Of a DNA stretch of 64,000 bases, positions 25,133-62,306 are shown piece by piece. Location: assembly GCA_028282805.1 (NCBI GenBank), contig JANQHD010000023.1:1-64000 (forward strand), read 5' to 3'. Position numbers and translations under genes: made by a program. Positions within the stretch are counted from its first letter, which is position 1; each line of letters opens with the position of its first letter. A model generated the notes under the pieces. The model was not told the DNA's origin. It searched no databases and saw only the letters and a list, made by a program, of their open reading frames with translations. Source of the DNA: Phycisphaeraceae bacterium. GTDB taxonomy: Bacteria > Planctomycetota > Phycisphaerae > Phycisphaerales > Zrk34.

Positions 25133-25741
25133 CTAGCTACTGTTATCTTTGGTGGTTTCGAACGCACCCTCAATGTGCTTCACTACGATGTGACCCAATG
25201 CGGTCAACCATACGCGGCTTACAGAACCTTGTGGGTTCTGTATGAGCCGCATATCTTTCAGCTTCTTGGTTACGTCATACAAACTATTCGGCTCTTGCCT
25301 ACACGCTTTGGACGCTATGTGCTGCATGGTTTGAGCGCTTGCCATGTCGAAGCAACGCGACTCCCGCAGAGCGATGAGAATAGCTTCGCCGCGATCGGTG
25401 ACTTTCTGGACAAGCACATCAACACGGCTACGCCAATACCCCAAATAGGCAATAGCCTTGGGCGTGTTCCGTATCCACAACGGGTGATTAGGCGAGACGT
25501 GCCGTCCTTTTTCGATCCAAGGCTCCACGCCGACACGGTAACGCACGGGTACCCACTCGGCCTCGTCGCTTTCGGGCTCCCCCAACCAATAACCTAATTC
25601 CACCAGCTCACACGCCAGCATGTATGCCACCGTCTCCTTCTTGCGTATAGCCTCAGGCAGATTCACAACTGGTGTATGCGCCCTTGGGTGACCTAAGGTA
25701 AGCAGCAGTTCTAAAACGTCAGCGGGTGGTTCAGAAAACAT
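25133..25741 (-). CDS. Hypothetical protein coupled to the integrase
   Basis: A 202-residue protein whose ATG at 25741 overlaps the integrase stop (TGATG). It has a Trp/Pro-rich centre (YWLGEPESDEAEWVPVRYRVG) and a helical C-terminal half (SLYDVTKKLKDMRLIQN) that may be a winged helix. Codon use is less GC-rich than in flanking genes. No family recognised. Confidence 0.55.
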   Translation of the reverse strand: MFSEPPADVLELLLTLGHPRAHTPVVNLPEAIRKKETVAYMLACELVELGYWLGEPESDEAEWVPVRYRVGVEPWIEKGRHVSPNHPLWIRNTPKAIAYLGYWRSRVDVLVQKVTDRGEAILIALRESRCFDMASAQTMQHIASKACRQEPNSLYDVTKKLKDMRLIQNPQGSVSRVWLTALGHIVVKHIEGAFETTKDNSS

Positions 25742-26934
25742 CAACCCACCTCCTTCATCACCTGCATGGCGCGTTCATGGTCGTGCTCGGCGTACAGCTC
25801 CGTCGTCTGCGGTGCGTTATGCCCCAGCACCAGCCGGGCCACTTCAATACCGTAACGCGCCCGCAACCAGGTCGCCCGTGTGTGCCGCAACTGGTGGGCG
25901 GTCCACTTGGGCACGTCGGCCTTGGCGCAACCCCGGACGATGGCCCGCGTGTAGGTCTGCGAGTCGTAGCGGTCGCGGGGCAGGCGTTTGGGCTTGACCG
26001 CCCGATTGGTGCCGGGCCGATTGCCGCAGTTCAGCGGTGTGACGCGCTGGGCGTGATTCCGCTCCCGCCGGTCCTGCTCGGCCTCCGATGGACTGAACAG
26101 GTAGGCGTGCGTCGGCCTGCCCGCCAAGAAAGGCTGGATGGCGGCTTGGGCTTGGGGACCGAGGTAGATCACCCGCTCCTCGCCCCGGTAGGCGGTCTTG
26201 TGCTGGAGCGGGCGGTACAGCCACACCTCCCCGCTCATGTCTAAGTCGATAGGCCGCATGATGACCAGCTCGCCGCCCCGCGCTCCGGTCAGCAGTTGCA
26301 GTTGCACCAGCGCCCACACCTGCGGGCTGACGTGCGACTGGATGGCGTCCACGTGCGCCACGGGTACCGGCCGGACCCGGCCCGGCTCGGGGGCGGGGCA
26401 GCGGCCGCGCTTCAGTGATTCCACCGCCTTGAGGTCCTGCCACACCCGGCCGGGCACCAGCTCGCTTTCCGCCGCCCACTTAAACATGCGGACGATCCAC
26501 TTCACGCGCTTGTTGACGGTGCTGCGGTTCCATCCCTTTTCGACCATCAGGTCGCGCACCAGCTTCAGCTTCTTGGGGCCGAACTGCTCGGCGGCGGTGC
26601 TGGCGTACAGCTTCCGCAGCGGGCGCAGGGCGTGGCAGACGTCCTGCAAGGTGGACGTGGGCAGGCCGTCGGGGCCGGTGTAGTACGCTTGGGCGTGTTC
26701 CCAGTACCGGGCCATGACGTTGACCAGCCGCACGCCGGAATCGCCCGCGTCCGGGCGTCGGGTGGCCCAGTCGGGTACCCGCCGCCCGTTGTGCAGGTAC
26801 TCGGCGATCAGCCGTTCGTAGCGCTCGCGGCTTTCGGGTGTGCCGTGCGCGCCCAAGTAGATGCGGCGTCCGGCCAGCTCGACGAGGGCTTGGCCTGTGG
26901 GTTTGTGGTGACGGTACGTGGGGATGCGTGGCAT
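25741..26934 (-). CDS. Tyrosine recombinase / integrase
   Basis: The 397-residue protein has the full catalytic set: Arg in LLTGARGGEL, His-x-x-Arg in HQLRHTRATW, His in VLGHNAPQTTE and Tyr in LYAEHD. The N-terminus (PRIPTYRHHKPTGQALVEL) is typical of the integrases that are abundant in planctomycete genomes. It starts 122 bp from the tRNA-Arg 3' end and points away from it, the usual layout for a tRNA-targeted integrase. A perfect palindrome lies just upstream (26958-26979). Confidence 0.92.
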   Translation of the reverse strand: MPRIPTYRHHKPTGQALVELAGRRIYLGAHGTPESRERYERLIAEYLHNGRRVPDWATRRPDAGDSGVRLVNVMARYWEHAQAYYTGPDGLPTSTLQDVCHALRPLRKLYASTAAEQFGPKKLKLVRDLMVEKGWNRSTVNKRVKWIVRMFKWAAESELVPGRVWQDLKAVESLKRGRCPAPEPGRVRPVPVAHVDAIQSHVSPQVWALVQLQLLTGARGGELVIMRPIDLDMSGEVWLYRPLQHKTAYRGEERVIYLGPQAQAAIQPFLAGRPTHAYLFSPSEAEQDRRERNHAQRVTPLNCGNRPGTNRAVKPKRLPRDRYDSQTYTRAIVRGCAKADVPKWTAHQLRHTRATWLRARYGIEVARLVLGHNAPQTTELYAEHDHERAMQVMKEVG

Positions 26935-26957
26935 CGGCGGGCCTCCCTTGCCTTGCG

Positions 26958-26979
26958 AATCGGGTAGTACTACCCGATT
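26958..26979. promoter_or_regulatory. Perfect 22-bp palindrome upstream of the integrase
   Basis: Two 11-base arms (AATCGGGTAGT and its exact complement) meet with no spacer, 23 bases before the integrase start. This is consistent with a dimeric regulator or recombination-directionality site. Confidence 0.6.
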
Positions 26980-27055
26980 GCGGGTTGGGGTTACGGCCGC
27001 GCCGCCACGTTGGCGGGTTGCCCTAAAGACGGGCGTCGGCGGGACTTACTTTTAA

Positions 27056-27129
27056 TATCCGCGGCAGGATTCGAACCTGCGACCTCGTGCTCCGGAGGCA
27101 CGCGCTCTATCCAGCTGAGCTACGCGGAC
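27056..27129 (-). tRNA. tRNA-Arg (anticodon CCG)
   Basis: On the minus strand a full cloverleaf is visible: acceptor GTCCGCG/CGCGGAT (one G-U pair), D arm GCTC/GAGC, and anticodon stem CGTGC/GCACG around loop CTCCGGA. The T arm is GCAGG/CCTGC with TTCGAAT. The anticodon CCG reads Arg CGG codons. CCA is not encoded. Confidence 0.95.
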
Positions 27130-27175: not shown

Positions 27176-29287
27176 CTACCCGTTTTCACCCTCGGCGGGC
27201 GATGATCCCTCGCCGCTCGCCGGCTTAGCGTCTTCCGACTCTTCCGGGGCTTCGTCGGTTTTGGGCTTCTCTTGTTGCGCTTCGTACTCTTCCGCTTGCT
27301 TGGCGGTGGGGTTGAGCACGATGAGCATCTTTTCGATCACGAAGCCGTTGGGGTCGAAGTTGCCCTCGGCGGTCCACTTGTAGATCGCGATGCGCAGCGG
27401 GGCGTCGATGTTGTCCCAGCCCGACGAGCGCACGTAGTGCACGCGGATGACCTTGCCGTCGCCGTCGAACTCGATGCGGACGATCGGGTTGAACGGGTAA
27501 GTGGTCAGGCGTGCCGCGGGCGAGAAGCGCGGACGGACGGTCTTGAGGCGCACGCCCTGCTTGGCCCAGACCCGGCCGGGGATGATGAGCGATTGCTCGA
27601 AGCGCGTGGCGGCGGGCGCCTCGGCGTCGGCGCGCGGCGCGATGGTGGGGTTGGCGTCGCTGGCGGTGCTGGGCATCAGCGCGGGTTGTTCGACCGCGGC
27701 CTCGCGCGGTTCGACGGCGTCGGTCATCGCCACTTCGACCGGCTCGGTGAGCTGGTCGGATTCGCTGTCGACCGACTCGGCGGGCTCGGTCGGCTGCGTC
27801 GCGTGGTCTTCCGGGTCGGCTTGTTCGCTGGTCGCATCGACGGGTTGCTCGCCGGGCGGGCCGGGCTTGGGGCGCGTGGCGTCGGCGAGGTCGGGCGCGT
27901 CGGCGCGGGCGGCCTCGGGCGATTCACGGCGAACCTCGTCGTCCAACAGCGTGTCGGGCCGGGGCGTGACGGTGTCCGGTTGGTCGTCGGTCGGCAACGG
28001 CGGGGCCGGGTCGGTGATGACCACGGTGGGCGAGCTGGTGGGGTCGATCGGCGAGGCGTTGTCGGGCTCGAGCGCGGGCGTTGGGTCGAGCACGTCCACG
28101 TCGGCGCTCACGTCGACCGGCAACGGCGGGCGGCCGACCGCGTCGCGGGGGTTGTCCTGTTCTTGCGCCAGCGCGATCTCGTCGGGCTGATCGGCGGCGG
28201 TGCCCGCGGCGGGCGCGGGCGTGTGGCTGATGTCGGTCTGCGGCTGGGGCTTCGAGGGCGAAGCGCCGAGCTGCGGCTTGCTGACCAGCGCCGGCGGCGT
28301 CGGGTCGACCGGCTCGCGTTGCGCGGTCGGGTCGGGCTCGGTGGTCATCTGCACGGTCGGCTGGTCGAACCACAGCTTCTCCGTGGCCAACAGTGCTTCG
28401 AAATGCTCGTAGCTGATCGTGTTCATCGACAACACGCTGGGCTCGGCCATGCCGACGTCGCTGCGCGGCTTTTCGATGTAAAGCTTGGCGCAGGCGCGGT
28501 TGTTGGTCTCGTCGGCCTCGGGCACGCGGTTGTCCGGGTCGACCTCGGCGCAGAACTCGTACACGCCCGATTCGTCGACGGTGATCGTGGCGTGCGAAAC
28601 GACGATCTCGCCCCGGCCGAACGTGGGCAGCGTTTCGGTCTCGACGGGCAGGCGTTTGATCGGCTTGCCGTCGAGGGTCAGCTCGACATCGGCCACATCG
28701 ACTTCGGCGTCGCCGAGGTTGGCGATGAACAGCTCGACCGGCACGCGCTGCCCGACCTTGGCGCGCTGCGGCAGGTTCAACCGGTAGATCATCAGGTCCG
28801 CCATGCGCGGGCCGGGGTTTTCGGGCAGCAGCCAGACGGCGTCCTGCGCCAGCGCGTTGTTGGTTTCGTCGGCTTCGCGCAGGCGGTCGCGTGGGTCGAC
28901 GACGAGTTGCACGACGTGCAGGCCGGGCTCGGTCACGTGCAGCGCGGCTGTCAGTTCGAGCGATGCGCCGGCGGGCAAGCGTTGGTCGACGGTGGCGCGC
29001 TTGTGGGTCTGGCCGTCGACGAGCAGTTCGTAATCGAACCCGTCGGCGTCGCGCGAGCCGGCGTTGGTGACGGTCAGCGCGACGGGCGCGGCCCGCTGGG
29101 CGACGGGGGCCAGATCAAAGCGGATCGCGGCCGCGACGAGGTCGGGGCTTGGCCCGGCGGGTGGGTCGGGCGGGCCGGTGGTGCGATCGCCGGACCACCA
29201 GCCGTAGCTGGCGGCGACCAGCAGGTGCAGCGTGACCGACAGCACGAGGCCAACGGTCAGGGGCAGCATGGTTTCGCGTTCGAACAT
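27176..29287 (-). CDS. Membrane-anchored CARDB protein with TonB-like C-terminus
   Basis: A 703-residue protein: one N-terminal transmembrane helix (residues 7-31), then two CARDB adhesion-like domains. The first spans about residues 45-150 (LTVTNAG, EADETNN) and the second about 160-275 (LFIANLG, EADETNN). A long Pro/Asp/Glu/Thr-rich stretch to about 590 is followed by a C-terminal domain with the TonB-C pattern (IVRIEFDGDGKVIRVHYVRSSGWDNID is its core). TonB transfers proton-motive energy from ExbB/ExbD to outer-membrane receptors. The gene follows exbD at 21 bp. Extracytoplasmic CARDB domains within a TonB are unusual, and no exbB lies nearby. Confidence 0.75.
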   Translation of the reverse strand: MFERETMLPLTVGLVLSVTLHLLVAASYGWWSGDRTTGPPDPPAGPSPDLVAAAIRFDLAPVAQRAAPVALTVTNAGSRDADGFDYELLVDGQTHKRATVDQRLPAGASLELTAALHVTEPGLHVVQLVVDPRDRLREADETNNALAQDAVWLLPENPGPRMADLMIYRLNLPQRAKVGQRVPVELFIANLGDAEVDVADVELTLDGKPIKRLPVETETLPTFGRGEIVVSHATITVDESGVYEFCAEVDPDNRVPEADETNNRACAKLYIEKPRSDVGMAEPSVLSMNTISYEHFEALLATEKLWFDQPTVQMTTEPDPTAQREPVDPTPPALVSKPQLGASPSKPQPQTDISHTPAPAAGTAADQPDEIALAQEQDNPRDAVGRPPLPVDVSADVDVLDPTPALEPDNASPIDPTSSPTVVITDPAPPLPTDDQPDTVTPRPDTLLDDEVRRESPEAARADAPDLADATRPKPGPPGEQPVDATSEQADPEDHATQPTEPAESVDSESDQLTEPVEVAMTDAVEPREAAVEQPALMPSTASDANPTIAPRADAEAPAATRFEQSLIIPGRVWAKQGVRLKTVRPRFSPAARLTTYPFNPIVRIEFDGDGKVIRVHYVRSSGWDNIDAPLRIAIYKWTAEGNFDPNGFVIEKMLIVLNPTAKQAEEYEAQQEKPKTDEAPEESEDAKPASGEGSSPAEGENG

Positions 29288-29308
29288 GGGTTTAACCGCT
29301 CGCGGGCC

Positions 29309-29740
29309 TTACTCGGTATCGGCCTGGGGGCTGCCGACGATGTTGAAATCCTCCACGCCGGCCGCGTCGAGCATGTTCATCAGGCGCCACATGATCGGCC
29401 CACGATCGACGTGGCTCTCGCCGGCTTCCATCGCCAGGTAGACGCGGGGCGGTTCGTCGGTGTTCATCGCTTTTTCGAGCTGTGCGCCGAGCTGCGCCTC
29501 GGTCAGGGGCTTGCGGTTGAGGTAGACCTGGCCCTGCACGTCGATGGTGATGGCGAACATCGACGGGATGGGGGCCGACTCGCCGCCGCTGACCTGCGCG
29601 AGCTTGACCGGCAGCACTTCGGCGCGGACGACCATCACCTGGCTGTATATGAAGAAGGTCAACAGCAGGAAGATCACGTCGAGCAACGGGGTCAGCTCGA
29701 TGCGGGTCTGGTGCCGGCGGCGTCGCAGTGTGAAGGCCAT
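29309..29740 (-). CDS. exbD: ExbD/TolR family protein
   Basis: From ATG 29740 the protein is 143 residues. It has a basic N-terminus, IELTPLLDVIFLLLTFF with the conserved Asp in the transmembrane helix, and a periplasmic domain. It is the proton-channel partner in Ton/Tol systems. TACAAT (29752-29747 on the minus strand) sits exactly six bases before the start, so the mRNA may be leaderless. Only the TonB-like gene accompanies it; ExbB must come from elsewhere. Confidence 0.88.
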   Translation of the reverse strand: MAFTLRRRRHQTRIELTPLLDVIFLLLTFFIYSQVMVVRAEVLPVKLAQVSGGESAPIPSMFAITIDVQGQVYLNRKPLTEAQLGAQLEKAMNTDEPPRVYLAMEAGESHVDRGPIMWRLMNMLDAAGVEDFNIVGSPQADTE

Positions 29741-29839: not shown

Positions 29840-30159
29840 ACTTGTCTCTTTATTTTGGGGGATTGAACCCGACCGCGGCGCGCGTGGCCTGCGCGATTGG
29901 CCCCAACGCAGCGCGTCCCACACGCAAAGCCTGCAGCGTCGGCGCGCGGCAACGCGGTTTAAAAGTGTTGAAGCGTATTGACGGTTTGAACGCCCGCGTT
30001 GGCACGTGTTTCGCGTAAACAAATCTGGCAATGTGCGACACACACTTATCAAAACTGCTATACTGGACGCGGGTCCAGAGGAGAATGACCTGCAGGGTAC
30101 AGGTCCACTTCTAGTTGGGTTATTCATCTACTTTTTGCCCAGAGAAAAGGGGTATCGAA

Positions 30160-31707
30160 ATGAGAGTCACGCATACGCTATCGATTCCTGCGCTCGTGCT
30201 GGCCTGCGGGCTGATGGGGCTGGCCGGTTGCCAGAGCTCGCAATCCACCGCGACCGCCGAAGCGCCCAAGTCCAAGCCGGCCCCCAAGCCGGTCAAGGTC
30301 GCCCAGCCGGGCATGGTTTCGACCGCCATCGCGCTGCCCACCGGCGATAAGCGCACCAGCGGGCTTTACGTCGAGAAGATGGCCCCCGCCGAGGTCTCGC
30401 TGAACCAGGAATACACCTACACCATCCGCGTGACCAACCTCGCCAGCACCTCGCTGAGCAACGTCAAGGTCGTTGACCAGCTGCCCAGCGACGGCTTTAC
30501 GGTCACGTCGACCGAGCCCGCCGCCCGGCAGGCCGACGGCAACCTGCACTTCGACCTGGGCACCATGAAGCCCGGGCAGGTGCTGATCCTCGTGGTCAAG
30601 GGCAAGGCCACCAAGGTCGGCGAGCTGACCAACTGCGTGACCGGTTCGTACGACCTGGTCGGCTGCCTGACCGTCGCTGTCACCCAGCCCGACCTGAAGA
30701 TGACCAAGACCCTGCCCCAGCAGGTGCTGATCTGCGACGACATCCCCTTCACCGCCACCGTCTCCAACAACGGCACCGGCGTGGCGCGCAACGTCAAGTT
30801 CGTCGACAACCTGCCCGACGGCCTCGTGGTCAAGGACGGCGGCAAGTCCAGCCTCTCGCTCGACCTCGGCGACCTGATGCCCGGCAAGAGCAAGACCGTC
30901 ACCACCACCCTCAAGGCCAAGCGCACCGGCACGTTCAAGAACACCGCCAACGCCTCGGCCGCGGGCGGCCTCAAGGCCACCGCGTCCGACTCGGTCAAGG
31001 TGCTCCAGCCCGTGCTCGCGATCACCAAGACCGGCACCAAGACCACCTACGCCGGGCGGAACATCGACTACACCATCACCGTCAAGAACACCGGCGACGG
31101 CGTGGCGAAGAACCTGATGGTCAACGACGGCGTGCCCGCCGGCACGACCTACGTCGCGTCGAACATGAACGGCGCCTACGCCAACGGCTCGGTCACCTGG
31201 AAGCTCGGCGACCTGCAGCCCGGCCAGACCAAGACCGTGAAGATGACCGTCAAGGCCAACAAGATCATGACCGTGCACAACGCCGCGGCCGCCGACGCCG
31301 ATTGCGCCAAGGCCGTCACCGCCAAGGCCACCACCGAGGTCAAGGGCATCCCCGCCATCCTGCTCGAGGTCGTCGACGTCGAAGACCCGATCGAGGTCGG
31401 CTCCAACGTGACCTACGTGATCACCGCCACCAACCAGGGCTCGGCGACCGGCACCGGCATCAAGATCAACGCGATGCTCGAGAAGGCCCAGCAGTACGTC
31501 TCCAGCACCGGCGCCACCAAGGGCACGCACGCCGGCGGCAAGGTGACCTTCACCCCGCTGGCCAAGCTCGCCCCGGGCGCCAAGGCCAGTTGGAAGGTGA
31601 CCGTCAAGGCCGCCGAAGCCGGCGACATCCGCTTCACCGTCACCATGAACACCGACCAGCTCACCCGCGAGGTGCGCGAGACCGAAGCGACGAACTTCTA
31701 CAAGTAA
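30160..31707 (+). CDS. DUF11-repeat lipoprotein (OmcB-like architecture)
   Basis: The 515-residue protein starts at ATG 30160 with AAAAGGGG upstream. It has a lipoprotein signal (lipobox GLAGC, Cys24) and a Lys/Pro/Ala-rich linker. Four or five repeats of about 95 residues follow, of the DUF11 type (YTYTIRVTNLAST; DIPFTATVSNNGTGVARNV; IDYTITVKNTGDGVAKN; NVTYVITATNQGSATG). Such repeats form stacked beta-sandwiches in large envelope proteins, including chlamydial OmcB. This suggests a lipid-anchored structural envelope protein. Very regular Lys/Thr-rich composition implies high expression. A terminator follows at 31766. Confidence 0.85.
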   Translation: MRVTHTLSIPALVLACGLMGLAGCQSSQSTATAEAPKSKPAPKPVKVAQPGMVSTAIALPTGDKRTSGLYVEKMAPAEVSLNQEYTYTIRVTNLASTSLSNVKVVDQLPSDGFTVTSTEPAARQADGNLHFDLGTMKPGQVLILVVKGKATKVGELTNCVTGSYDLVGCLTVAVTQPDLKMTKTLPQQVLICDDIPFTATVSNNGTGVARNVKFVDNLPDGLVVKDGGKSSLSLDLGDLMPGKSKTVTTTLKAKRTGTFKNTANASAAGGLKATASDSVKVLQPVLAITKTGTKTTYAGRNIDYTITVKNTGDGVAKNLMVNDGVPAGTTYVASNMNGAYANGSVTWKLGDLQPGQTKTVKMTVKANKIMTVHNAAAADADCAKAVTAKATTEVKGIPAILLEVVDVEDPIEVGSNVTYVITATNQGSATGTGIKINAMLEKAQQYVSSTGATKGTHAGGKVTFTPLAKLAPGAKASWKVTVKAAEAGDIRFTVTMNTDQLTREVRETEATNFYK

Positions 31708-33872: not shown

Positions 33873-34220
33873 ATGGCCACCGAGACGGCTGAAATCATCC
33901 TCACCGACACCGCCGCACGCGAGATCAGGTCGATCTGCCAGCAGCAGGACCTCCAACTCGAAAACGTCTACCTCAAGGTCGGCGTCAAGGGCGGCGGGTG
34001 CTCGGGCTTTTCCTACATCCTCGACCTGACCGAGACCAAGCACGAGCAGGACCACGAGTTCGAGCTCCACGGCGTCCGCGTGATCTGCGACCCCAAGAGC
34101 TTCCTCTACCTCAACGGCACCGAGGTCGACTTCAAGGACGAGATCATGGGACGCGGGTTCGTGTTCAAGAACCCCAACGCCACCAGCACCTGCGGCTGCG
34201 GCTCGTCGTTCAGCGCCTGA
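33873..34220 (+). CDS. HesB/IscA/ErpA-type iron-sulfur carrier
   Basis: The 115-residue A-type carrier has all three conserved cysteines: Cys43 in GGGCSGFSY and Cys107 and Cys109 in the terminal CGCGSSF. It holds and delivers Fe-S clusters or iron to apo-proteins, including lipoyl synthase. The ribosome site GGGAG precedes the ATG and TAGAAT near 33842 is a likely -10 box. It stands alone without isc or suf genes. Confidence 0.93.
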   Translation: MATETAEIILTDTAAREIRSICQQQDLQLENVYLKVGVKGGGCSGFSYILDLTETKHEQDHEFELHGVRVICDPKSFLYLNGTEVDFKDEIMGRGFVFKNPNATSTCGCGSSFSA

Positions 34221-46920: not shown

Positions 46921-48333
46921 CTACTCTTGCGGTTGTTGCCCAATGATCCGCTTAAACTCCGCTTCGTCGGCGATGCACTCCACGTGCCCGTCGACAAAGC
47001 CGATATTGCAACCGAGCTTGGGCCAGTTGTCGTACGCCTCGTAAACCAACGCCGTCTTTCCTGTGTCCTTGATCTTGCTCAGCGGCACGCCGGGCTTGAG
47101 GTAGACGTACGCCCGCTTGTCGGTCAGGTTGCGCGGGTTGTCTTCCACCAAGCGCTTGTCGATCAACCCCGCCTTCACGAGCTGCGCCAGCGAGTCGGGC
47201 AACCGTCCTTGGTGATCGTTCGCGTAGACGAAGCACACCGTTACGATCTGCCTGATCTGGGTGGCGCTCTGTGTCGCCAACGCCTTCTCGCGTGCATGCA
47301 TCACCGACTGCATCGCCGGGCCGAGAATGGTCATCGCCGCATCGTCGAGCTTCTGTTGATCGAGCTCCATCCTGATCGTCGTGCCCCGCGGCTCGGGCAA
47401 CAGCTTGACCGCCTGTCGGAGCATCTCGACGAAGACCTTCTCGTCCTCGGACAGGCCGCGGTGTCCGGCCGACAGGTGCGCCGCCAGGTCGGGCAGCCCC
47501 CGCACAAACACGTGCAACGCCTTGGCGTGCTGCGGGGTGGCGGCCTCGTCGACCAGCACGAAGCGCGGCGAAGCGCCGACATCGACCCCCACCGCCATCC
47601 ACTGGATGCCGCGCGTGAAGGTCGTGGTCGGCTCGCCCCCGAGCCGCGCCGGCAGGTTGGGCATCATCTCGTCGATCACCCGGCGCATGTCTTTCGTGGG
47701 GATCAGCACCGCCCGCGCCGCCCGGCCCTCGACGGCGGCCAACGCCTCGGCCAACTCAGGCCGCGTCGCCGCGTCGCGCCCGTTGACGATCGCCGACAGC
47801 GCCGCGCCGCTGCCGATGAGCACCACGTCGCCGCGCGCCACCTTGTACAGCCGGCCGGGGTCCGTTTCGCCGCGGTACGCCTGCACGTGGGGCACGGCCT
47901 CGAGCAGCCGGTCGACGTTGCCGCCGGGCTCGACGGGCACGACCACCAGCGGCATCGGCTCGGCGATCACCTCGGGCAGCGAAAACGTGACGTACACGTG
48001 CCGCCCGCCCGCGACCACGAATTGCGCGCGGAACACCTCCGCCACCATCGGCGCGAACTTGATCTGCGCGATCTCGGCGTTGTGCTCGCCGGCGAAAACC
48101 CGGTCCGCCACCCCGCCCCACCACTTCGTGAAGCCCGGCAGGTCCACGCGGGCCGCGTCGAGGTAGCCGACGAACACCGTCTGCTCGGTCAGGTACGGCG
48201 CGACCGCCTTGGTGATGTGCGCGGTGTTCACCGGCTCGGGCGCCTTGCGGGTTTCGTCTTGGGCCAGCGCCGCGCCGCCGCACAGCGTCATCATCAGCGC
48301 TAAGCCGCAAGCGGCTGTGTGTATGCGATCCAT
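46921..48333 (-). CDS. Exported protein with DG-type C-terminus
   Basis: The 470-residue protein has a signal peptide (about residues 1-25, ALAQ). The central region is of unknown fold. The C-terminal part is like that of planctomycete pseudopilin-related proteins (YANDHQGRLPDSLAQLVKAG; IGFVDGHVECIADEAEFKRI), although the prepilin N-terminus is missing. It is the last gene of the unit sigma factor, anti-sigma-like, 48337 protein, with a 3-base gap to the previous gene. Function unknown. Confidence 0.75.
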   Translation of the reverse strand: MDRIHTAACGLALMMTLCGGAALAQDETRKAPEPVNTAHITKAVAPYLTEQTVFVGYLDAARVDLPGFTKWWGGVADRVFAGEHNAEIAQIKFAPMVAEVFRAQFVVAGGRHVYVTFSLPEVIAEPMPLVVVPVEPGGNVDRLLEAVPHVQAYRGETDPGRLYKVARGDVVLIGSGAALSAIVNGRDAATRPELAEALAAVEGRAARAVLIPTKDMRRVIDEMMPNLPARLGGEPTTTFTRGIQWMAVGVDVGASPRFVLVDEAATPQHAKALHVFVRGLPDLAAHLSAGHRGLSEDEKVFVEMLRQAVKLLPEPRGTTIRMELDQQKLDDAAMTILGPAMQSVMHAREKALATQSATQIRQIVTVCFVYANDHQGRLPDSLAQLVKAGLIDKRLVEDNPRNLTDKRAYVYLKPGVPLSKIKDTGKTALVYEAYDNWPKLGCNIGFVDGHVECIADEAEFKRIIGQQPQE

Positions 48334-48336
48334 GGC

Positions 48337-49821
48337 TTATCCCTTCTCGTTGTCCGCCGGTGGGCGGAGCGTCACCTTGTAACCGATCTGCTGGTGCGGC
48401 CGAACCCCGGGCAACCGCTCGCATTCGACGTAGAACACGTTGCCCTCGACCTTGTACAAAAACGGCTCGCCCGTCATCGGGTCGTCGGGCACGGACAGGT
48501 CGGTGATGTCGTCCAACGACGCGGGCAGCTTGCCGCCGTGCGTCGCCGCGTGGTGGCGCACGGCCTCGATCACGCGGAACGCCTTGACCTGCCGGTCGGT
48601 CTGCCAGGCGATCATGTTCGCACCGTCAAGCGCGGGTATCAGCATCGCCAGCGGGTTGCCGCCCGCCCACAGCTTAGCCGCGAGGTCTGCGTCGCGACCC
48701 CTCCCACGCCGGGCCTCGTGGTAGGGCAGGCTAAACCACTTGTACATCTCACCCCGAGCGATGTCGTACTCGCGCAGCATCTGCGTGAACACCACCTTGG
48801 CCACCGGCATCTTTTCGACTTCTTCGGCGCTGAGGCCCGAAGCGATGAGTTGCTTCTTGTAGCGCGGGTAGCTGACCAGGGTCAGCCCCGTGATCAGGGC
48901 GCGGGCCTCGTCGGCGTCGTCGCCCCCACCCCGGATCGCCGGGGCGATCTTCCGGCATAGCCGGTCCAGCGCCACACGCCATTGCTCGGCGGTCCAGCTC
49001 TTGTCGGTCGCTTCGGCAAGCTCGGGCGCCCACAGGTACACCAAGTCCGACTCGGTGCGCAGCGCCTTGTTCAGACGCACCGGCGGCGAGGGCAGCTCCG
49101 CCAACGCCCAGTACAGGTTCGGCGCGTCCGGCTGCTGCATCAGCGTCTCGAACTGCTTGAGCGTGTGCGCGCTGACCGCGATGCCCACCAGCCCCTCGAT
49201 CAGCGTCACGCCCTCCTCGAGGTGCCGCCCCATCGCCAGCGCGGTCTGCATGTCGCGCAGCGCCCCCTTGTAGTCGCCTTGCGCCATCTGCCAGCGCGCG
49301 TCGAGCATCAGCAGCTGGGCCCCCCGCCGCATGTACTGAAGGTCCGGCATCAACAACGCGAACCCCTTGCTGATGTCGCGCTGCCAGTCGCACGACCGGT
49401 ACCGCGCCGCGTCGTGAAACGCCCGCAGCGCCGATCGGTTCTGCCAGAGCACCTGCTCGATCGACCACGTTTGGGTCTCGTCGTCGCGCAGGCCGACCCG
49501 GGCGGCCGCCAACTCGTCCAGCGGCAGGGCGAACGCCGCCTGGTAGTCGTAATCCCGCGCATCACGCAACAGGTTGATCGCCTGCTGGTACGCAAGCGCC
49601 GCGTTGCCGTGACGCATCTCGCGCGGCGGCGGCAACAACGTCCAGCGCACCAGCACCTCCGGCGGCTCGGCCGCGCTGACCGTCAGCTCCGTGAGCTTGG
49701 GCGCCGAGGCGGTTTTGCCCGCATGCATCGGCCGCGTGGCCGCGACCGCCTGGCCCCAAGCCGGGCCGGCCAGCACCAGGCACAACGTCGAGGCCGTGAC
49801 TTGTAACGCTAGCTTGTTCAT
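48337..49821 (-). CDS. Exported hypothetical protein of the ECF unit
   Basis: From ATG 49821 the protein has 494 residues with a signal peptide (ending AWGQA). A mostly helical body (YQQAINLLRDARDYDYQAAF; GDYKGALRDMQTALAMGRHLEEG) may be TPR-like. The C-terminal stretch PDDPMTGEPFLYKVEGNVFYVE is often seen in planctomycete secreted proteins. Its start overlaps the stop of the anti-sigma-like gene by four bases. Function unknown. Confidence 0.75.
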   Translation of the reverse strand: MNKLALQVTASTLCLVLAGPAWGQAVAATRPMHAGKTASAPKLTELTVSAAEPPEVLVRWTLLPPPREMRHGNAALAYQQAINLLRDARDYDYQAAFALPLDELAAARVGLRDDETQTWSIEQVLWQNRSALRAFHDAARYRSCDWQRDISKGFALLMPDLQYMRRGAQLLMLDARWQMAQGDYKGALRDMQTALAMGRHLEEGVTLIEGLVGIAVSAHTLKQFETLMQQPDAPNLYWALAELPSPPVRLNKALRTESDLVYLWAPELAEATDKSWTAEQWRVALDRLCRKIAPAIRGGGDDADEARALITGLTLVSYPRYKKQLIASGLSAEEVEKMPVAKVVFTQMLREYDIARGEMYKWFSLPYHEARRGRGRDADLAAKLWAGGNPLAMLIPALDGANMIAWQTDRQVKAFRVIEAVRHHAATHGGKLPASLDDITDLSVPDDPMTGEPFLYKVEGNVFYVECERLPGVRPHQQIGYKVTLRPPADNEKG

Positions 49822-50384
49822 CCGTCGTCTCCCGGCGAAAGCCAGTTCAACACCTTCATCGTTCGGTTCAGCTCGGTACCCGACGGGTACAGCGCACGTT
49901 GCCATTGCTCCAACTGCTCGTCCGGCCGACGTGGCTGGGCGCGGGCCTTGCTCGCCATCACCTTGTCCACGCCGTCGTCCAACATCGCCGTCGCGGGGTT
50001 CGACGGCTTGATGATCCGATCCAGCACCGTGGGCTTCTCTTCGCCGCGCTCGGCCACGAGCACGACCGGCGCCTCCCGCGGCGGTGCGACGGGCTCTTGA
50101 TCCGACTCGACCGGTTGTTCGACCAGCCGCGCACCGCCCGCGTCGCTCACCGCGCCGCCGTCGCCCGGCACCGCCGCCCACCACGCGCCGACGTTCAACA
50201 CCAGCAACACCCCCATCGCACCCGACAGCACGCGGCGTGCCCGCCGGTTCGCCGCACGCCGGCCCGACTCGAACATGACCCGGTCGCGGTCGAGCGCACT
50301 AGCCGCGGGCTTCAAGCTGCCCAGCGCCAGCGCCAGCTCGCGCTCGGCCCCGTTCAACGCGTCTGGGTTTTCCTTGCCTTGCAT
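49818..50384 (-). CDS. Single-pass membrane protein, likely anti-sigma factor
   Basis: From ATG 50384 the protein has 188 residues: a cytoplasmic acidic/basic N-terminus (about 1-52), one transmembrane helix (VLSGAMGVLLVLNVGAWWAA), and a periplasmic part rich in Pro/Glu. It overlaps the ECF sigma gene by 31 bases, which is typical of sigma/anti-sigma pairs. No zinc anti-sigma motif (H-x3-C-x2-C) is present, so the role is inferred from position and topology. Confidence 0.65.
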   Translation of the reverse strand: MQGKENPDALNGAERELALALGSLKPAASALDRDRVMFESGRRAANRRARRVLSGAMGVLLVLNVGAWWAAVPGDGGAVSDAGGARLVEQPVESDQEPVAPPREAPVVLVAERGEEKPTVLDRIIKPSNPATAMLDDGVDKVMASKARAQPRRPDEQLEQWQRALYPSGTELNRTMKVLNWLSPGDDG

Positions 50385-50887
50385 GATCCACGCTCCAGGT
50401 GTTTGCGTATCCCCGCCAACCCCTTGCGGTACCGGTCGAACGCCGCCGACGTCGACACCCCCATCACCGCCGCCGCCTCGCTCAACGTCATCCCGCCCCA
50501 CGTCCGAAGCACCACCGCCTCCCGCTGATTGTCGTTCAACGCCCGCAGCGCCGCCGCCACCTCTTCGCTGTCCGCCAGCGCATCCCGCGCCGGCTCGAAC
50601 CACGCCCGCGACTGCTGGGCGATCTTCTCGTCGTGCTTGCTCCGACGCTTGCGGTTGCGCAACACGTTCATCGCTTCGTTGCGCACCACCCGGTAAAGCC
50701 ACGCCTTCGGGTAGTCCGGCTCGTCCGCTGCGCCCATCAGCTTGATGAACGCACGCTGCACCGCGTCTTCCGCGCCCTCGGCGCTGAGCCATTGCCGGGC
50801 GTACAACACCAGCGCCGAGCCGCACCGCTCGAACAGGTCCGCGGCCAAACGCCGCCGTCGCTCCGCCTTGTTGTCCACTCCGGCCAT
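50354..50887 (-). CDS. ECF RNA polymerase sigma factor
   Basis: From ATG 50887 the protein has 177 residues (a GTG at 50914 is also open). Region 2 (AEDAVQRAFIKLMGAADEPDYPKAWLYRVVRNEAMNVLRNRKR) and region 4 (LNDNQREAVVLRTWGGMTLSEAAAVMGVSTSAAFDRYRKGLAGI) are both clear. It probably controls its own operon, which continues with an anti-sigma-like membrane protein and two exported proteins. Confidence 0.88.
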   Translation of the reverse strand: MAGVDNKAERRRRLAADLFERCGSALVLYARQWLSAEGAEDAVQRAFIKLMGAADEPDYPKAWLYRVVRNEAMNVLRNRKRRSKHDEKIAQQSRAWFEPARDALADSEEVAAALRALNDNQREAVVLRTWGGMTLSEAAAVMGVSTSAAFDRYRKGLAGIRKHLERGSCKARKTQTR

Positions 50888-50993
50888 GTGTTCGCTCGCC
50901 ACAGCGATAGACACCCGACCCCCGAGTTTTTACGGGTGTTTCCGGGGCCGTGTGAAATTATTGTCCGCGGGCGTGCGGGGCGTGTCGAGCCGT

Positions 50994-52550
50994 TTACGGC
51001 TTAGCGCTCAGGTCCGTCTCATCCTTGTAATGCTTCCGCAACGCCTCGAGCTGCGCCTTAAGCTCCGCCACCGTCGCCGCCACCGCCGGGTCCCCATAAC
51101 GGTTGTTCAGCTCGTCCGGGTCGGTCTTCAAGTCGTAAAACTCCCACTCGCCGAGCTGGTAAAAGTGCATCAGCTTGTAACGCTCGGTGCGAATACCGAC
51201 GTGCCGCGCCACCGCGTGCGGGCCGGGGTACTCGTGGTAGTGGTAGTAAATGCTCTTGCGCCAATCGCTTGGCGACTCGCCCCGAAGCAGCGGCACCAGC
51301 GAAGCGCCCTGCATCTCCTTCGGCGCATCGGCGCCCGCGATCTCCAAAAAAGTCTGCGCGTAGTCGATGTTCTGCACCATCTGATCCACGCGCTTGCCCC
51401 TCGGCGTCACGCCCGGCCAACTCACAACCAGCGGCATCCTCAGCGACTCCTCGTACATCCAACGCTTGTCGTACCACCCGTGGTCGCCGAGGTAAAAGCC
51501 CTGGTCCGAGCTGTAAATCACGATCGTGTTCTCGGCCAGCCCGTTGGCTTCGAGGTACGCCACCAGCCGACCGACCGACTCGTCCACGCCCGCGATGCAC
51601 CGCAGGTAGTTCTTCAGGTAACGCTGGTACTTCCAACGCCACAGGTCTTTGCCCCCCAGGTTCGCCGCGCGAAACTTTTCGTTGTAAACCACGAAGTGCT
51701 CATCCCACGCCGCGCGCTGCTCGGCGTTCATCCGCCGGAACATGTGCGGCAACGTCTTATCCGGCGTCGTCGCCAGCGGCGGCGTGACCATCAAGTCCTC
51801 CGCCATCCGCATGTGGTGGTTGATCGTCATCTTCTGGTTGCGCGCGGCGCTGGCGTTGTCCGACCAGTCGTCGAACAGCGTCGGCGCTTCCGGCAAATCC
51901 TCGTCGGCGAACAGCGACAGGTGACGCGTGGCCGGCAACCACGAACGGTGCGGCGCCTTGTGCTGCATCATCAGCATGAACGGCTTGCCCTTGTCACGCC
52001 CCTCGCTCAGCCATTTCAACGCCAAATCCGTGACCACGTCCGTGCAGTGGCCCGTGTAACGCCTCTTGCCCTCGGCGCTGATCAGGTCCGGGTTGTAGTA
52101 CGAGCCCTGGCCCGGCAGCACGTGCCAGTAATCGAAGCCCGTCGGCTCGCTCCGCAGGTGCCACTTGCCGATCATCGCGGTGGTGTAGCCCGCCCGGCGC
52201 AGCAGCTTGGGGAACGTGGTCTGCGAGCCGTCGAACTTGTTGCCGTTGCGTACGAACCCGTTGAGGTGGCTGTGCTTGCCGGTCAGTATGTTCGCCCGGC
52301 TCGGGCCGCAGATCGAGTTCGCGCAAAAGCTGTTCGTGAACAGCACGCCGCGCTCGGCCAGCTTGTCGATGTTCGGCGTCGGCGCCGCCCTCGCCAGCCA
52401 GCCGCCGTACGCCCCGATCGCGTGCGGCGCGTGGTCGTCGGTAAATATGAACACGATGTTCGGCCGGCCCGCCGCGCTCGCCACCCCACACACGCACAAC
52501 ACCAGCGCCACCGCAACCAACCACGCACGCCTCATCCGCCCTTTGTTCAT
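50994..52550 (-). CDS. Type I sulfatase, exported
   Basis: The 518-residue protein has a signal peptide (about residues 1-27). The metal site FTDDH and the sulfatase motif C-x-P-S-R (Cys81, CGPSRANILTGK) follow, where Cys is oxidised to formylglycine. The C-terminal part (SSDQGFYLGDHGWYDKRWMYEESLRMP) matches sulfatases acting on sulfated glycans. Substrate unknown; planctomycetes use many such enzymes on algal polysaccharides. An in-frame ATG at 52568 is an alternative start. The gene lies between the ECF unit and recQ, all on the minus strand. Confidence 0.93.
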   Translation of the reverse strand: MNKGRMRRAWLVAVALVLCVCGVASAAGRPNIVFIFTDDHAPHAIGAYGGWLARAAPTPNIDKLAERGVLFTNSFCANSICGPSRANILTGKHSHLNGFVRNGNKFDGSQTTFPKLLRRAGYTTAMIGKWHLRSEPTGFDYWHVLPGQGSYYNPDLISAEGKRRYTGHCTDVVTDLALKWLSEGRDKGKPFMLMMQHKAPHRSWLPATRHLSLFADEDLPEAPTLFDDWSDNASAARNQKMTINHHMRMAEDLMVTPPLATTPDKTLPHMFRRMNAEQRAAWDEHFVVYNEKFRAANLGGKDLWRWKYQRYLKNYLRCIAGVDESVGRLVAYLEANGLAENTIVIYSSDQGFYLGDHGWYDKRWMYEESLRMPLVVSWPGVTPRGKRVDQMVQNIDYAQTFLEIAGADAPKEMQGASLVPLLRGESPSDWRKSIYYHYHEYPGPHAVARHVGIRTERYKLMHFYQLGEWEFYDLKTDPDELNNRYGDPAVAATVAELKAQLEALRKHYKDETDLSAKP

Positions 52551-52608
52551 GGTTCGCCTTTCCGTCATGACACCAGAAAGACGCCCCCCGCCCACCGGTT
52601 CGTGCAAG

Positions 52609-54432
52609 CTATCCCGCGCCGTCGCCCACCGGCGCATCGCCGCACAACACCTCCAAAAACGCCTCGCCGTAACGCTCGAGCTTCGCCTCGCCCACGCCCG
52701 TGATGTGCCGCAGCGCCCCCAAATCCCGCGGCCGTTCCAGCGTCATCTCCATCAGTGTCGCGTCGTTGAACACGATGTACGGCGGCACGTCCTGCTCCTT
52801 CGCCAACGCCGACCGCTTCGCCCGCAACGCCTCGTACAGTTCGCTCTGCTCGACCGACTCAAATCTCATCGCCTCGCGCCGCGCCTTCTTCGCCTTGCGC
52901 TCGCGCTTCAGTTTCGGGTCCTTGCGCAGCATCAGCTCACGCTCGCCCCGCAACACCGGCATCGCCTTCGCCGTCAACCGAAGCGAACCGTGCTCGCCGT
53001 CGACCGCTAACAACCCCATCGCGATCAGCTGTCGGTACACGCTCTGCCAGCTCTTGCGCGTCATCTCCGTGCCGATGTTGAACGTCGACACCCGGTGGTG
53101 ACCGAACCGCAGCACCTTCTCGGTCTCCACGCCGAGCAGCACGTCGATCAGGTGCGACGCCCCGAACACCTGGTCCGTACGGTACGCACAGCTGATCGCC
53201 TTCTGCGCCGCGACCGTCGCGTCCCACGTCTCGACCGGCCGCAAGCACGTGTCGCAGTTGCCGCACGGCTCGTCGCGCTGTTCACCGAAATATTCGAGCA
53301 ACACCCGCCGCCGGCAGCGCGTCGTCTCGCAATACGCCAGCAGCGTGTCGAGCTTGCGGTGTTCGAGGCGTTTCTGCGCATCGGGCGCTTCCGAGCGTTC
53401 GATGAAGTTGCGCATCGTCGCCGCGTCTTGCAGGCCGTACGCCATCCACGCGTTCGCCGGCAACCCGTCGCGCCCCGCCCGGCCCGTCTCCTGGTAATAC
53501 GCCTCCATCGACTTCGGCAGATCCAAATGCGCCACGAACCGCACGTCCGGCTTGTCGATGCCCATGCCGAACGCGATCGTCGCCACGATGATCAACCGGT
53601 CCTCCAACAAAAACCGCCGCTGGTGCTCGTCGCGCGTCGCGCCGTCCAACCCCGCGTGGTAAGGCAGCGCATCGTGGCCGTGCTCGTTCAAAAACCCCGC
53701 CACCTGCTCCGTGCGGTTGCGCGACAGGCAATACACGATCCCGCTGTCGTTCGGGTGCTCGGTGTCGATCAGCCGCAGCAGTTGCTTCTTCGGGTTGTCC
53801 TTCGGCACAACCGTGTACCTGATGTTCGGCCGATCGAACCCGCTGACAAACCGCTCCGCTTCGCGCAGGTCGAGCTGCTCGACGATGTCCTCGCGCGTCG
53901 GCTCGTCCGCCGTCGCCGTCAACGCCAGCCGCGGCACCGACGGAAACCGCTCGTGCAACACCGCCAGCTGCCGGTACTCCGGCCGAAAGTCGTGCCCCCA
54001 CTGGCTCACGCAGTGCGCCTCGTCGATCGCAAACAGCGCCAGCGGCGTCGCCTCGAGGTGCTGCAAAAACCGCGGCGTGCACAGCCGTTCGGGCGCCACG
54101 TACACCAGGTCCAACTCGCCCGCACGCATCTGCTGTTCGACGGCGTACGCCTCGGCCGCGCTCAGCGACGAGTTGACCTGCGCCGCACGCACGCCGAGCT
54201 GCCGCAGCGCGTCGACCTGGTCCTTCATCAGCGCGATCAGCGGGCTGACCACCACGCCCACACCCGCCCGCGCCAACGCCGGCACCTGGTAGCACAACGA
54301 CTTGCCCCCGCCCGTCGGCATCAGCACCAGCGCATCGCCCCCCCCGATCACGTGCTCGACGATCGCCCGCTGGTTGTCGCGGAACGACTCGTAACCGAAC
54401 ACCTCGCTCAAAATCTCGCTCGGGTCACGCAT
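52609..54432 (-). CDS. recQ: ATP-dependent DNA helicase RecQ
   Basis: The 607-residue protein is complete. It has motif 0 and Walker A (MPTGGGKSLCYQVPA), DEAH with HCVSQWGHDFRPEY, and motif VI (QETGRAGRDG). The zinc-binding RQC region is C-x-x-x-C...C-G-N-C-x-x-C, and an HRDC domain lies at the C-terminus. It unwinds DNA in recombination and replication-fork repair. CATAAT lies six bases before the start on the minus strand, consistent with a leaderless mRNA. Confidence 0.96.
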   Translation of the reverse strand: MRDPSEILSEVFGYESFRDNQRAIVEHVIGGGDALVLMPTGGGKSLCYQVPALARAGVGVVVSPLIALMKDQVDALRQLGVRAAQVNSSLSAAEAYAVEQQMRAGELDLVYVAPERLCTPRFLQHLEATPLALFAIDEAHCVSQWGHDFRPEYRQLAVLHERFPSVPRLALTATADEPTREDIVEQLDLREAERFVSGFDRPNIRYTVVPKDNPKKQLLRLIDTEHPNDSGIVYCLSRNRTEQVAGFLNEHGHDALPYHAGLDGATRDEHQRRFLLEDRLIIVATIAFGMGIDKPDVRFVAHLDLPKSMEAYYQETGRAGRDGLPANAWMAYGLQDAATMRNFIERSEAPDAQKRLEHRKLDTLLAYCETTRCRRRVLLEYFGEQRDEPCGNCDTCLRPVETWDATVAAQKAISCAYRTDQVFGASHLIDVLLGVETEKVLRFGHHRVSTFNIGTEMTRKSWQSVYRQLIAMGLLAVDGEHGSLRLTAKAMPVLRGERELMLRKDPKLKRERKAKKARREAMRFESVEQSELYEALRAKRSALAKEQDVPPYIVFNDATLMEMTLERPRDLGALRHITGVGEAKLERYGEAFLEVLCGDAPVGDGAG

Positions 54433-54573
54433 GGCCGCATTATGACGGGCGTTCCGCCAACCGCCAACGCCGGTTCGTGACACCCGCGGCCGGGCAATCC
54501 TGTAAAAATATCAGACAACCTTGATCACCTTCGCCCGAGCCGCCGTCTAACCGGGTAGTTCACGAGTTGCACC

Positions 54574-55176
54574 ATGACGGACCCCACCATGCCCACCGAA
54601 CTTAACACCCCCGACGCCGACCCGGCGATCGCCCAGCGCGTGGCCGCCGGCGACGTCGAGGCCTTCGCCGTGCTGGTCCGGCGCTACGCCCGGCCGCTGT
54701 CGGCGTACATCGCCGGCCGCATCGGCGACCGGCACACCGCCGACGACCTCACGCAAGACGTGTTCCTCCGGGCGTACCGCAGCTTGAGCCGCGGCGCGTT
54801 CGCCGGCGCAGCCTCGCTGAAAACCTGGCTGTTCACCATCGCCAACAACGCCGTGATCGACCACCACCGCCACCGCGCCCGCCGGCCGAAAACCACAAGC
54901 CAGAAGCCGGCGCACGACCGCGCCGATGCCGCGAGCGACCCGGCGCACCTCACCGAACAGGCCGAGCAGGCCGAACGCGCCCGCCGGCTCATCGCCAAAC
55001 TGCCCGACGCCCAACAGCAGGTGATCACCATGAAGCTGCTGGGGCAACTGAGTTTCGCCGAGATCGCCGAGGTGCTCGGCTGCCCCGTCGCCACGGCCCG
55101 CTCGCGCATGCGCTACGGGCTGATGAAGATCCACGAACAGCTCATGACCGACACCGAGCAGGAGGTGGCCCGATGA
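54574..55176 (+). CDS. ECF RNA polymerase sigma factor
   Basis: The 200-residue protein has region 2 (ADDLTQDVFLRAYRSLSRG; SLKTWLFTIANNAVIDHHRHRAR), a low-complexity linker, and region 4 (LPDAQQQVITMKLLGQLSFAEIAEVLGCPVATARSRMRYGLMKI). It overlaps the next gene by four bases (ATGA), which is likely its anti-sigma partner. Confidence 0.92.
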   Translation: MTDPTMPTELNTPDADPAIAQRVAAGDVEAFAVLVRRYARPLSAYIAGRIGDRHTADDLTQDVFLRAYRSLSRGAFAGAASLKTWLFTIANNAVIDHHRHRARRPKTTSQKPAHDRADAASDPAHLTEQAEQAERARRLIAKLPDAQQQVITMKLLGQLSFAEIAEVLGCPVATARSRMRYGLMKIHEQLMTDTEQEVAR

Positions 55177-58022: not shown

Positions 58023-58045
58023 AAGTGGCCCGTTTTTTAAAACCA

Positions 58046-58074
58046 TTGACTCCGACAATCCCGACGTGTAGCTT
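58046..58074 (+). promoter_or_regulatory. Sigma-70-like promoter before a PEP-CTERM gene
   Basis: TTGACT (58046-58051), 17 bases, TAGCTT (58069-58074), ending about 37 bases before the ATG at 58112. Confidence 0.5.
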
Positions 58075-58111
58075 GCATTTAATCACCGGGCTTTTACGTG
58101 GGGGCTGAGCA

Positions 58112-59080
58112 ATGAGAGAGCGTACGGGGAATCGTCATCACTCGTCCCAAATCGCGTGGCTGTGCGTGTTTGTCGTGTTTGGGTTGTGCGGCGCCGTGGC
58201 GGAAGCGAGCTACCTGATCGGTCGGGGCAGCTACCCTGACCTGTCCGCTGAACCGGCAAGCGCCTCGACGGGGGGCGGCTCGGTCAGGGTTCACCGCATC
58301 GACGGTGTCACCGGTGCGGGCAGCCTGATCACCAATACCGCTTCGGTCGGAGTTGATTGGTCAGCCGACTCACATGGCCGGCTCTACAGCCGCATGCGAT
58401 TGCGCCCGGACGACGTATCCCCAAGCGGTTCCTCGGGGGCATCGGGTGCGCCTGGCATGCTCTGCTTCGACTGCGTCGAGTTCCTCACAACCAGCGACGC
58501 TTCGCTACAGGTGACCGACTCGCATACCCAGTTGGTGTTTGATAGCAACAAGTACGCGTATCGCCGACAGGCGTTCGCGTTTGATCCGAACGATGTGTTG
58601 TACGTGGTCTGGGATTTGACCGCGCAGTCGCTGGCGAGAGTGAACCCCACAACGGGTGCGGTCACCAAGCTGTTCGAGCTGTCGCCCGGCTTCGGCCTGA
58701 TCGACATCGACTTCGCACCCGACGGCCAATTGTTCGGCCTATCGTGGAACTCAGGGCTCGTGCGCATCGACACCACCAACGGCGCAGTGACCCAGGTGAG
58801 CGACGCGATCCTCGACCACTTCGTTATAAACGGACAATACCTGGGCGGCATGGCTTTCGACGACGCGGGCACGCTCTACGTGGCCAACGAATCGTTGTTC
58901 ATCGTCGACACGACCACCGGCAACGTCACCGACCTCGGGGTGATCGTCGATGACGGGTACATCTTTACCGAACTGGTTTACATCCCCGAACCGACCTCGG
59001 TCGCGATGCTCGTGGTGGGTGTGTGCTTCGCGATGCGCCGTCGGCTTACTCCTTCTTCGCCGGGGCGCGGCGGAGCTTGA
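58112..59080 (+). CDS. PEP-CTERM beta-propeller-like protein
   Basis: The 322-residue protein has a signal peptide (about residues 1-32). Repeated strands of a propeller-type domain follow (FAFDPNDVLYVVW...LARVNPTTGAVTKLF; IDFAPDGQLFGLSWNSGLVRIDTTNGAVTQV; MAFDDAGTLYVANESLFIVDTTTGNVTDLG). The PEP-CTERM tail is IPEPTSVAMLVVG then MRRRL. Ten extra residues after the basic cluster come from read-through into the 3' end of the convergent sulfatase gene, with a 35-base overlap. It is probably a substrate of the exosortase. Confidence 0.85.
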   Translation: MRERTGNRHHSSQIAWLCVFVVFGLCGAVAEASYLIGRGSYPDLSAEPASASTGGGSVRVHRIDGVTGAGSLITNTASVGVDWSADSHGRLYSRMRLRPDDVSPSGSSGASGAPGMLCFDCVEFLTTSDASLQVTDSHTQLVFDSNKYAYRRQAFAFDPNDVLYVVWDLTAQSLARVNPTTGAVTKLFELSPGFGLIDIDFAPDGQLFGLSWNSGLVRIDTTNGAVTQVSDAILDHFVINGQYLGGMAFDDAGTLYVANESLFIVDTTTGNVTDLGVIVDDGYIFTELVYIPEPTSVAMLVVGVCFAMRRRLTPSSPGRGGA

Positions 59081-60356: not shown

Positions 60357-60365
60357 GTCGGCTCC

Positions 60366-62120: not shown

Positions 62121-62136
62121 GAAGACGCTTGACGGC

Positions 62137-62218
62137 AAGGGCAAATGACAAAGGGCAAAGCTCAAAACCAGTAGCAAGCCGCCGATTTTTGGGTTTTGCC
62201 CTTTGTCATTTGCCCTTA
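62137..62218. repeat. Long inverted repeat between divergent sulfatase genes
   Basis: Two arms of about 23 perfectly matched bases (TTTGCCCTTTGTCATTTG core) face each other across about 30 bases. The TTTTGCCCTTTG module also occurs in the composite repeats at 41722 and 42405. Confidence 0.85.
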
Positions 62219-62306
62219 CCATCTGCGCACCGAGCTTGCATCGCCCGCACCGCACGAACCAGCGCCGGGCGAACGGTCGTCATTCGATGAAACGAAAGGC
62301 CTGCCC

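Follow-up and report, generated by a model that had tools for sequence, protein, structure and literature searches.

An ExbD gene and a CARDB-bearing TonB-like gene in a Phycisphaeraceae genome: probable parts of a split Ton-type machine with a solitary ExbB

In models of the Ton motor, ExbB holds TonB by the transmembrane (TM) helix, and ExbD takes hold of it at the D-box, which follows after a few residues. In the accessible part of PMC12204202, SHLS is given as the motor-binding motif of the TonB TM helix, and proline-rich TolA is called virtually indistinguishable from TonB. The accessible part of PMC3422733, a survey of 12 planctomycetes, reports TonB only in the four that have receptors; the survey makes no use of the term Phycisphaera. 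Here we analyse a pair of ExbD and TonB-like genes of a Phycisphaeraceae bacterium (genome size 3.9 Mb), carried by a 64 kb stretch of contig C52 that we call the window. The pair is real and conserved, and it is a variant of the Ton kind; the literature searched, some of it as extracts, yielded no description of the triad of ExbB, ExbD and TonB-like protein discussed below or of a CARDB-TonB fusion. From its sequence, the pair probably belongs to a split, proton-driven machine of the Ton type, in which ExbD and a CARDB-bearing TonB-like protein work with an unlinked, solitary ExbB.

Table 1. Features discussed in the text (positions in the window unless another contig is named)
Feature	Position	Strand	Length or residues	Remarks
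ExbD/TolR-type motor subunit	29309..29740	-	143 aa from ATG	PF02472 68 bits (cut-off 25.4)
TonB-like force transducer	27176..29287	-	703 aa	21 bp downstream of ExbD
N-terminal TM helix	29189..29269	-	7-33	AF2 helix
CARDB domain 1	28829..29146	-	~48-153	PF07705 best stretch 48-147; AF2 strands; solved-CARDB match
CARDB domain 2	28472..28795	-	~165-272	second PF07705 stretch; AF2 strands
D-box-like motif, presumed ExbD docking site	28349..28453	-	279-313	G279 and Q309 in 69/69
Pro-rich, acidic, disordered linker	27608..28348	-	314-560	AF2 model
TonB-fold C-terminal domain (predicted)	27314..27607	-	~561-658	
Short helix and charged tail past C-terminal domain	27179..27304	-	662-703	
A-type Fe-S carrier (IscA/ErpA family)	33873..34220	+		TIGR00049 124 bits; 4.1 kb from ExbD
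Solitary ExbB	G000:C47:60370-60969		200 aa	PF01618 102 bits; no ExbD near

The ExbD protein qualifies as such by both its PF02472 match and its TM aspartate; this residue, D21, lies within 'TPLLDVIFLLLTFF' and is invariant in all seven relatives aligned. The NCBIfam tolR model gives it 30 bits against 26 for exbD, all below cut-off. ExbD and the TonB-like gene probably form one operon with ExbD first. As the preliminary description had it, no ExbB lies beside them: the upstream neighbour is a DUF11-repeat protein, and downstream are a tRNA-Arg and an integrase. The DUF11/B_ant-repeat gene (30115-31707, with a lipobox-like start, LAGCQ) is divergent from ExbD, so the two possibly have a common promoter region. 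The phage-type integrase gene (25741-27129 region) directly adjoins the tRNA-Arg(CCG) (27056-27129, - strand) and looks like an integrated element. The window was searched for a direct repeat of the tRNA end of at least 14 bp, which could mark an att site, and has none. Further to the right (47337-63725) are several genes that on inspection are sulfatase-like (starts such as NIVFIFTDD). Genes were called with a simple caller throughout, except that ORF lists were used for genome G005.

The TonB-like protein, which has a match in eight of the nine genomes of the window's family, begins with a TM helix, which is followed by two CARDB domains, then a Pro-rich linker and finally a C-terminal domain (Table 1). 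If residues are placed by what we take to be the spacing of SHLS, the TM helix has S17xxxH21 and S32, with Tyr28 at the Leu position. Its relatives were compared in alignment A5, which holds 69 full-length proteins (69 ORFs with the C-terminal domain, less L240, L252 and L254, which were truncated or had no TM helix found, plus the window protein, L036 and L041, giving 69 again). The TM His is present in 67 of these and is Asn in the other two, and position 17 is S or A in every one; the Leu and second Ser positions of SHLS vary. A motif with the consensus TLTWIGYEEY...H.A...EQAA follows the TM helix in all 69; its Gly and Gln are invariant, and its Trp is found in 65, but is Thr (T290) in the window protein. 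The motif's position is right for a D-box and its hydrophobic pattern fits in part; segment 279-313 is plausibly a D-box that binds ExbD. The linker has 47 Pro in its 247 residues (19%) and is disordered in the AF2 model, and the tail beyond the C-terminal domain recurs in L035 and is missing from the other six family members aligned.

The C-terminal domain had been described beforehand as TonB-C-like, with failure of a TonB-C profile search named as the observation that would count against it. Such a failure is what the window protein itself gives, with 13.6 bits against Pfam TonB_2 in the full protein and 16.6 for the C-terminus alone (cut-off 22), but it is overturned by the protein's relatives and by its predicted fold. 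Among 38 aligned relatives at E<=1, TonB_2 matches 19 (best 3.2e-5) and TonB_C ten (best 5.5e-6). An AF2 model of the domain from the 38-row alignment has a pLDDT of 88; Foldseek places TonB-type C-terminal domains at ranks 1-14 (best E 2.2e-4; the FusB C-terminal domain is among the fold matches) and TolA III at rank 15, and VIA-align gives a Z of 8.2 for Neisseria TonB (rmsd 2.6, 81 aligned) against 5.1 for the best TolA. As modelled, then, the domain has a TonB fold and is nearer TonB than TolA, although the fold by itself gives no function.

A scan of genome contigs with the TonB-like protein returned no relative; the TonB-like alignment A1 has no sufficiently conserved stretch. Relatives were gathered by a scan with the ExbD alignment (A2), and the matching records are mostly Phycisphaeraceae, Phycisphaerales or Phycisphaerae, the rest being broader assignments, mostly Planctomycetota. 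Among 80 ExbD loci a TonB-like domain is encoded within 2.5 kb in 67, and an ExbB in one, where it stands beside its own ExbD, so that the pairing of a TonB-like protein with ExbD in the absence of ExbB, first noticed in the window, is kept. The genome as a whole has seven MotA/ExbB and seven ExbD matches. The search for ExbB homologues that had been proposed earlier led to the solitary ExbB of Table 1, whose orthologues are found in all nine family genomes (52-67% identity, at least 205 bits, every other match scoring at most 83). The window ExbD likewise has an orthologue in all nine (at least 159 bits, other ExbDs at most 53). At 30 solitary-ExbB loci, nine from the family and 21 from other genomes, no ExbD of this type is encoded in the ~1.5 kb on each side, and in G008, whose sequence is one contig of 5.71 Mb, the solitary ExbB is at least 2.2 Mb from ExbD. 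T125, E154 and T159 of the solitary ExbB are invariant in the nine family genomes; we take them to be the equivalents of T148, E176 and T181 of E. coli ExbB. The gene often adjoins bacillithiol genes in the family (BshA 465 bits). In genome G001 even the TonB-like protein and ExbD come from different contigs (L036, L093), which leaves the three parts of that genome unlinked or fragmented.

The two motor genes also occur together across the order. In 301 order genomes, with ExbD scored by A2 at E<=1e-20 and ExbB by A3 at E<=1e-30 (absence being a score threshold, so that fast-evolving orthologues may count as losses), ExbD is present in 222 and the solitary ExbB in 239; 216 have both, six ExbD only, 23 ExbB only and 56 neither (Fisher 4e-35, relatedness uncorrected). 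Within one family, f2, the corresponding numbers for 110 genomes, leaving out nine negative genomes not assignable to a family, are 56, 0, 9 and 45 (3e-22, relatedness again uncorrected). Presence of the TonB-like protein, whose profile, A1, loses strength in distant families, does not track ExbB (Fisher p=0.55) and hardly tracks ExbD (p=0.10) in the order. It is likely that the solitary ExbB, though encoded apart, is dedicated to the ExbD-TonB pair. The three parts would then form an ExbB(5)ExbD(2)-TonB complex, the TM anchor bearing the presumed motor-binding His; proton flow would move ExbD, which would grip the D-box-like motif and pull the linker, and the C-terminal domain would pull an outer-membrane client.

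What that client might be differs between this genome and the class. The window genome has five receptor plugs, one of which, on C53, adjoins the genome's second Ton operon, a complete one, and the four receptor genes outside that operon may be the clients here. In the order, a TonB-dependent-receptor plug (PF07715, which may miss divergent receptors) is found in 90 of the 301 genomes; 187 genomes have all three parts of the machine, 56 with a plug and 131 with none, and plug and motor genes show no association across the order (p=0.78). Of 26 near-finished genomes picked from listings, 20 have the triad, 13 of them without a plug; in 1,573,313 bases of the ~2.2 Mb genome G119 the triad was found, and a local receptor profile gave no match. 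Class-wide, a client other than receptors would have to exist. The protein might instead be a transducer of the TolQRA type, acting via a Pal-like lipoprotein to keep the outer membrane stable, in a system lacking TolB. This is possible, if somewhat unlikely. It would suit the retention of the system in most order genomes and the many complete triads without a plug, the fact that tolQ and tolR are the best-scoring names (ExbB and ExbD both score slightly better on TolQ/TolR than on ExbB/ExbD models), the cited resemblance of TolA to TonB, and an OmpA/Pal-like lipoprotein gene (L362:13191-14651) that in G119 lies ~7 kb away from the solitary ExbB. On the other hand, no counterpart of this Pal-like gene turned up around the other ExbB loci examined, TolB_N is found in none of the nine family genomes (controls are positive in E. 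coli, Caulobacter and Bacteroides), and the modelled C-terminal fold ranks TonB above TolA.

The lack of an adjacent ExbB had been taken beforehand to suggest a shared motor, a suggestion that is probably wrong, as a conserved, solitary ExbB elsewhere tracks the window type of ExbD. We consider it unlikely that the pair borrows ExbB from another ExbB-ExbD operon while the solitary ExbB does something else, since the joint presence and absence of the two genes in the order and the want of an own ExbD at all 30 solitary-ExbB loci both speak against it. Other ExbB-ExbD operons do exist in the genome, and in family f2 sharing seems to occur: 43 of the 45 genomes without the solitary ExbB and the ExbD keep the TonB-like protein, so that the transducer there seems to use another motor, and six such genomes that were checked hold 2-5 other ExbDs each. 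Judged by their coordinates, in five of these six all the copies are in tandem pairs, and G058 has one unpaired copy; with the other ExbDs nearly all so paired, loss of the window type is plausible.

The D-box-like motif itself differs between f2 genomes with and without the motor genes. Among the matches listed (23 of the 56 genomes with motor genes and 22 of the 45 without), the median motif profile score is 39.5 bits with the motor genes against 15.8 without (Mann-Whitney 1.3e-4), and the residue two before the motif Trp is hydrophobic in 21/22 with and 1/22 without (Fisher 4.6e-10; truncated row L322 was left out of this count). When presence of the motor genes is mapped on the best tree of the C-terminal domains, five changes are needed, only one of which well-supported branches enforce, and a sign test on independent pairs is not significant (p=1). 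The association of this residue with the motor genes fits a contact with ExbD and may rest on few events.

The two CARDB domains reported previously in the window protein are borne out by its 96 bits with PF07705 (cut-off 22.7), in two stretches, and by solved CARDB domains that match the full-length model (3idu_B, TMt 0.87; 2kl6, TMt 0.89 and 26% identity). The solved structure 3idu is titled as a di-metal complex. It had also been said that absence of CARDB from all relatives would tell against the arrangement; PF07705 matches 11 of the 69 proteins, the window protein included. Between the TM His and the motif Gly, 58 of the 69 proteins have a spacing of 31-57 residues; it is 151-177 in five, 257-300 in four (257 in the window protein) and 400-405 in two, so that among the 11 long-spacer proteins the length rises in steps resembling one, two or three inserted domains; a local CARDB profile matches eight of these, and the insert of the other three is not identified by profile. 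Within the window's family there are two CARDB copies in the window protein, L038 and L040, one in L036, L037 and L041, and none in L035 and L039. Since the D-box-like motif follows the CARDB domains in the window protein, they lie between the two presumed motor contacts. To judge from the alignment, CARDB is optional, inserted after the TM anchor and ahead of the D-box-like motif, and, because most relatives are without it, not the basis of the machine; the domains probably serve as a spacer, or else some other envelope component docks on them. It had been proposed that they may bind the cell wall or a partner, and the protein would then be a Ton variant that spans the wall or is anchored in it. 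The good prediction of two CARDB domains close to the membrane side would agree with that, but their restriction to 11 of 69 relatives, and copy numbers of 0, 1 or 2 within a single family, which point to dispensability, make a wall variant improbable, and we do not favour it. That the pair is a decaying remnant, as the missing adjacent ExbB might suggest, is very improbable in view of the intact reading frames, conserved key residues and class-wide conservation.

The gene neighbourhood suggests a link to iron in the window's family. Fe-S assembly genes lie within 4.2 kb of the pair in eight of the nine family genomes, and an IscA, IscS, IscU or Rrf2-type gene is at most 2.5 kb from ExbD or TonB in seven; the isc names are backed by NCBIfam where checked. 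In L039 and L040 a gene for an Rrf2-family regulator is divergent from ExbD, and in G001 no isc gene was found in the stretches around the pair's genes. From these neighbours we infer co-regulation with iron supply, as the data suggest for the ExbD-TonB pair of this family; among the 80 named loci Fe-S neighbours occur in six, all of the window's family, so the link is family-specific. The neighbours at these 80 loci, named by inspection, are mostly housekeeping genes (gyrA-like 24, STAS protein 18, surE-like 15), and envelope genes near the pair (lolC/E-like 12, lpxI-like 11, waaA-like 9) are suggestive; the one member each of lpxI, lolCE, waaA and STAS that was checked scores below the curated cut-offs.

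Taken more widely, and tentatively, the triad might be a core, receptor-independent Ton machine of the Phycisphaerae: a dedicated, split set of three parts whose client would be something other than TolB or a TonB-dependent receptor, and with a transducer that tolerates 0 to 3 Ig-like (CARDB-type) domains between its motor contacts, so that the D-box could lie far from the TM anchor. Among these related proteins ~110-360 extra residues separate the two presumed contacts, in steps, which bears on how the motor pulls TonB, and the keeping of the triad where no receptor plug is detected suggests that the outer membrane hosts an energised process not yet recognised.

Compared with known systems, the machine resembles ExbB-ExbD-TonB of E. 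coli in the TM Asp of ExbD, the TM His of SHLS, the D-box-like strand, the Pro-rich linker and the predicted TonB-fold C-terminus. It differs in its unlinked and solitary ExbB, in the CARDB domains between the TM helix and the D-box-like motif, in the extended, Trp-containing motif found class-wide, and in that most of its relatives' genomes have no detected receptor plug. It is like TolQ-TolR-TolA in its motor type, in the best NCBIfam names and in being widespread in the order, and unlike it in the lack of TolB_N in all nine family genomes, in that no tol-pal cluster was seen, and in a C-terminal fold nearer that of TonB. With HasB and FusB it shares the status of a TonB paralogue beside a second Ton system, and FusB also appears among its fold matches; we know of no CARDB domain in TonB paralogues such as these. 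Two further ExbB-ExbD-ExbD operons of the genome (L030, L031) are accompanied by a protein that is vWA-like on inspection, and so resemble the transducers described in the accessible part of PMC12204202. Like those PVC-group vWA force transducers, as that part presents them, the TonB-like protein appears to be an anchor coupled to a motor of the Ton/Tol type; unlike them, it has a predicted TonB fold at its C-terminus in place of vWA.
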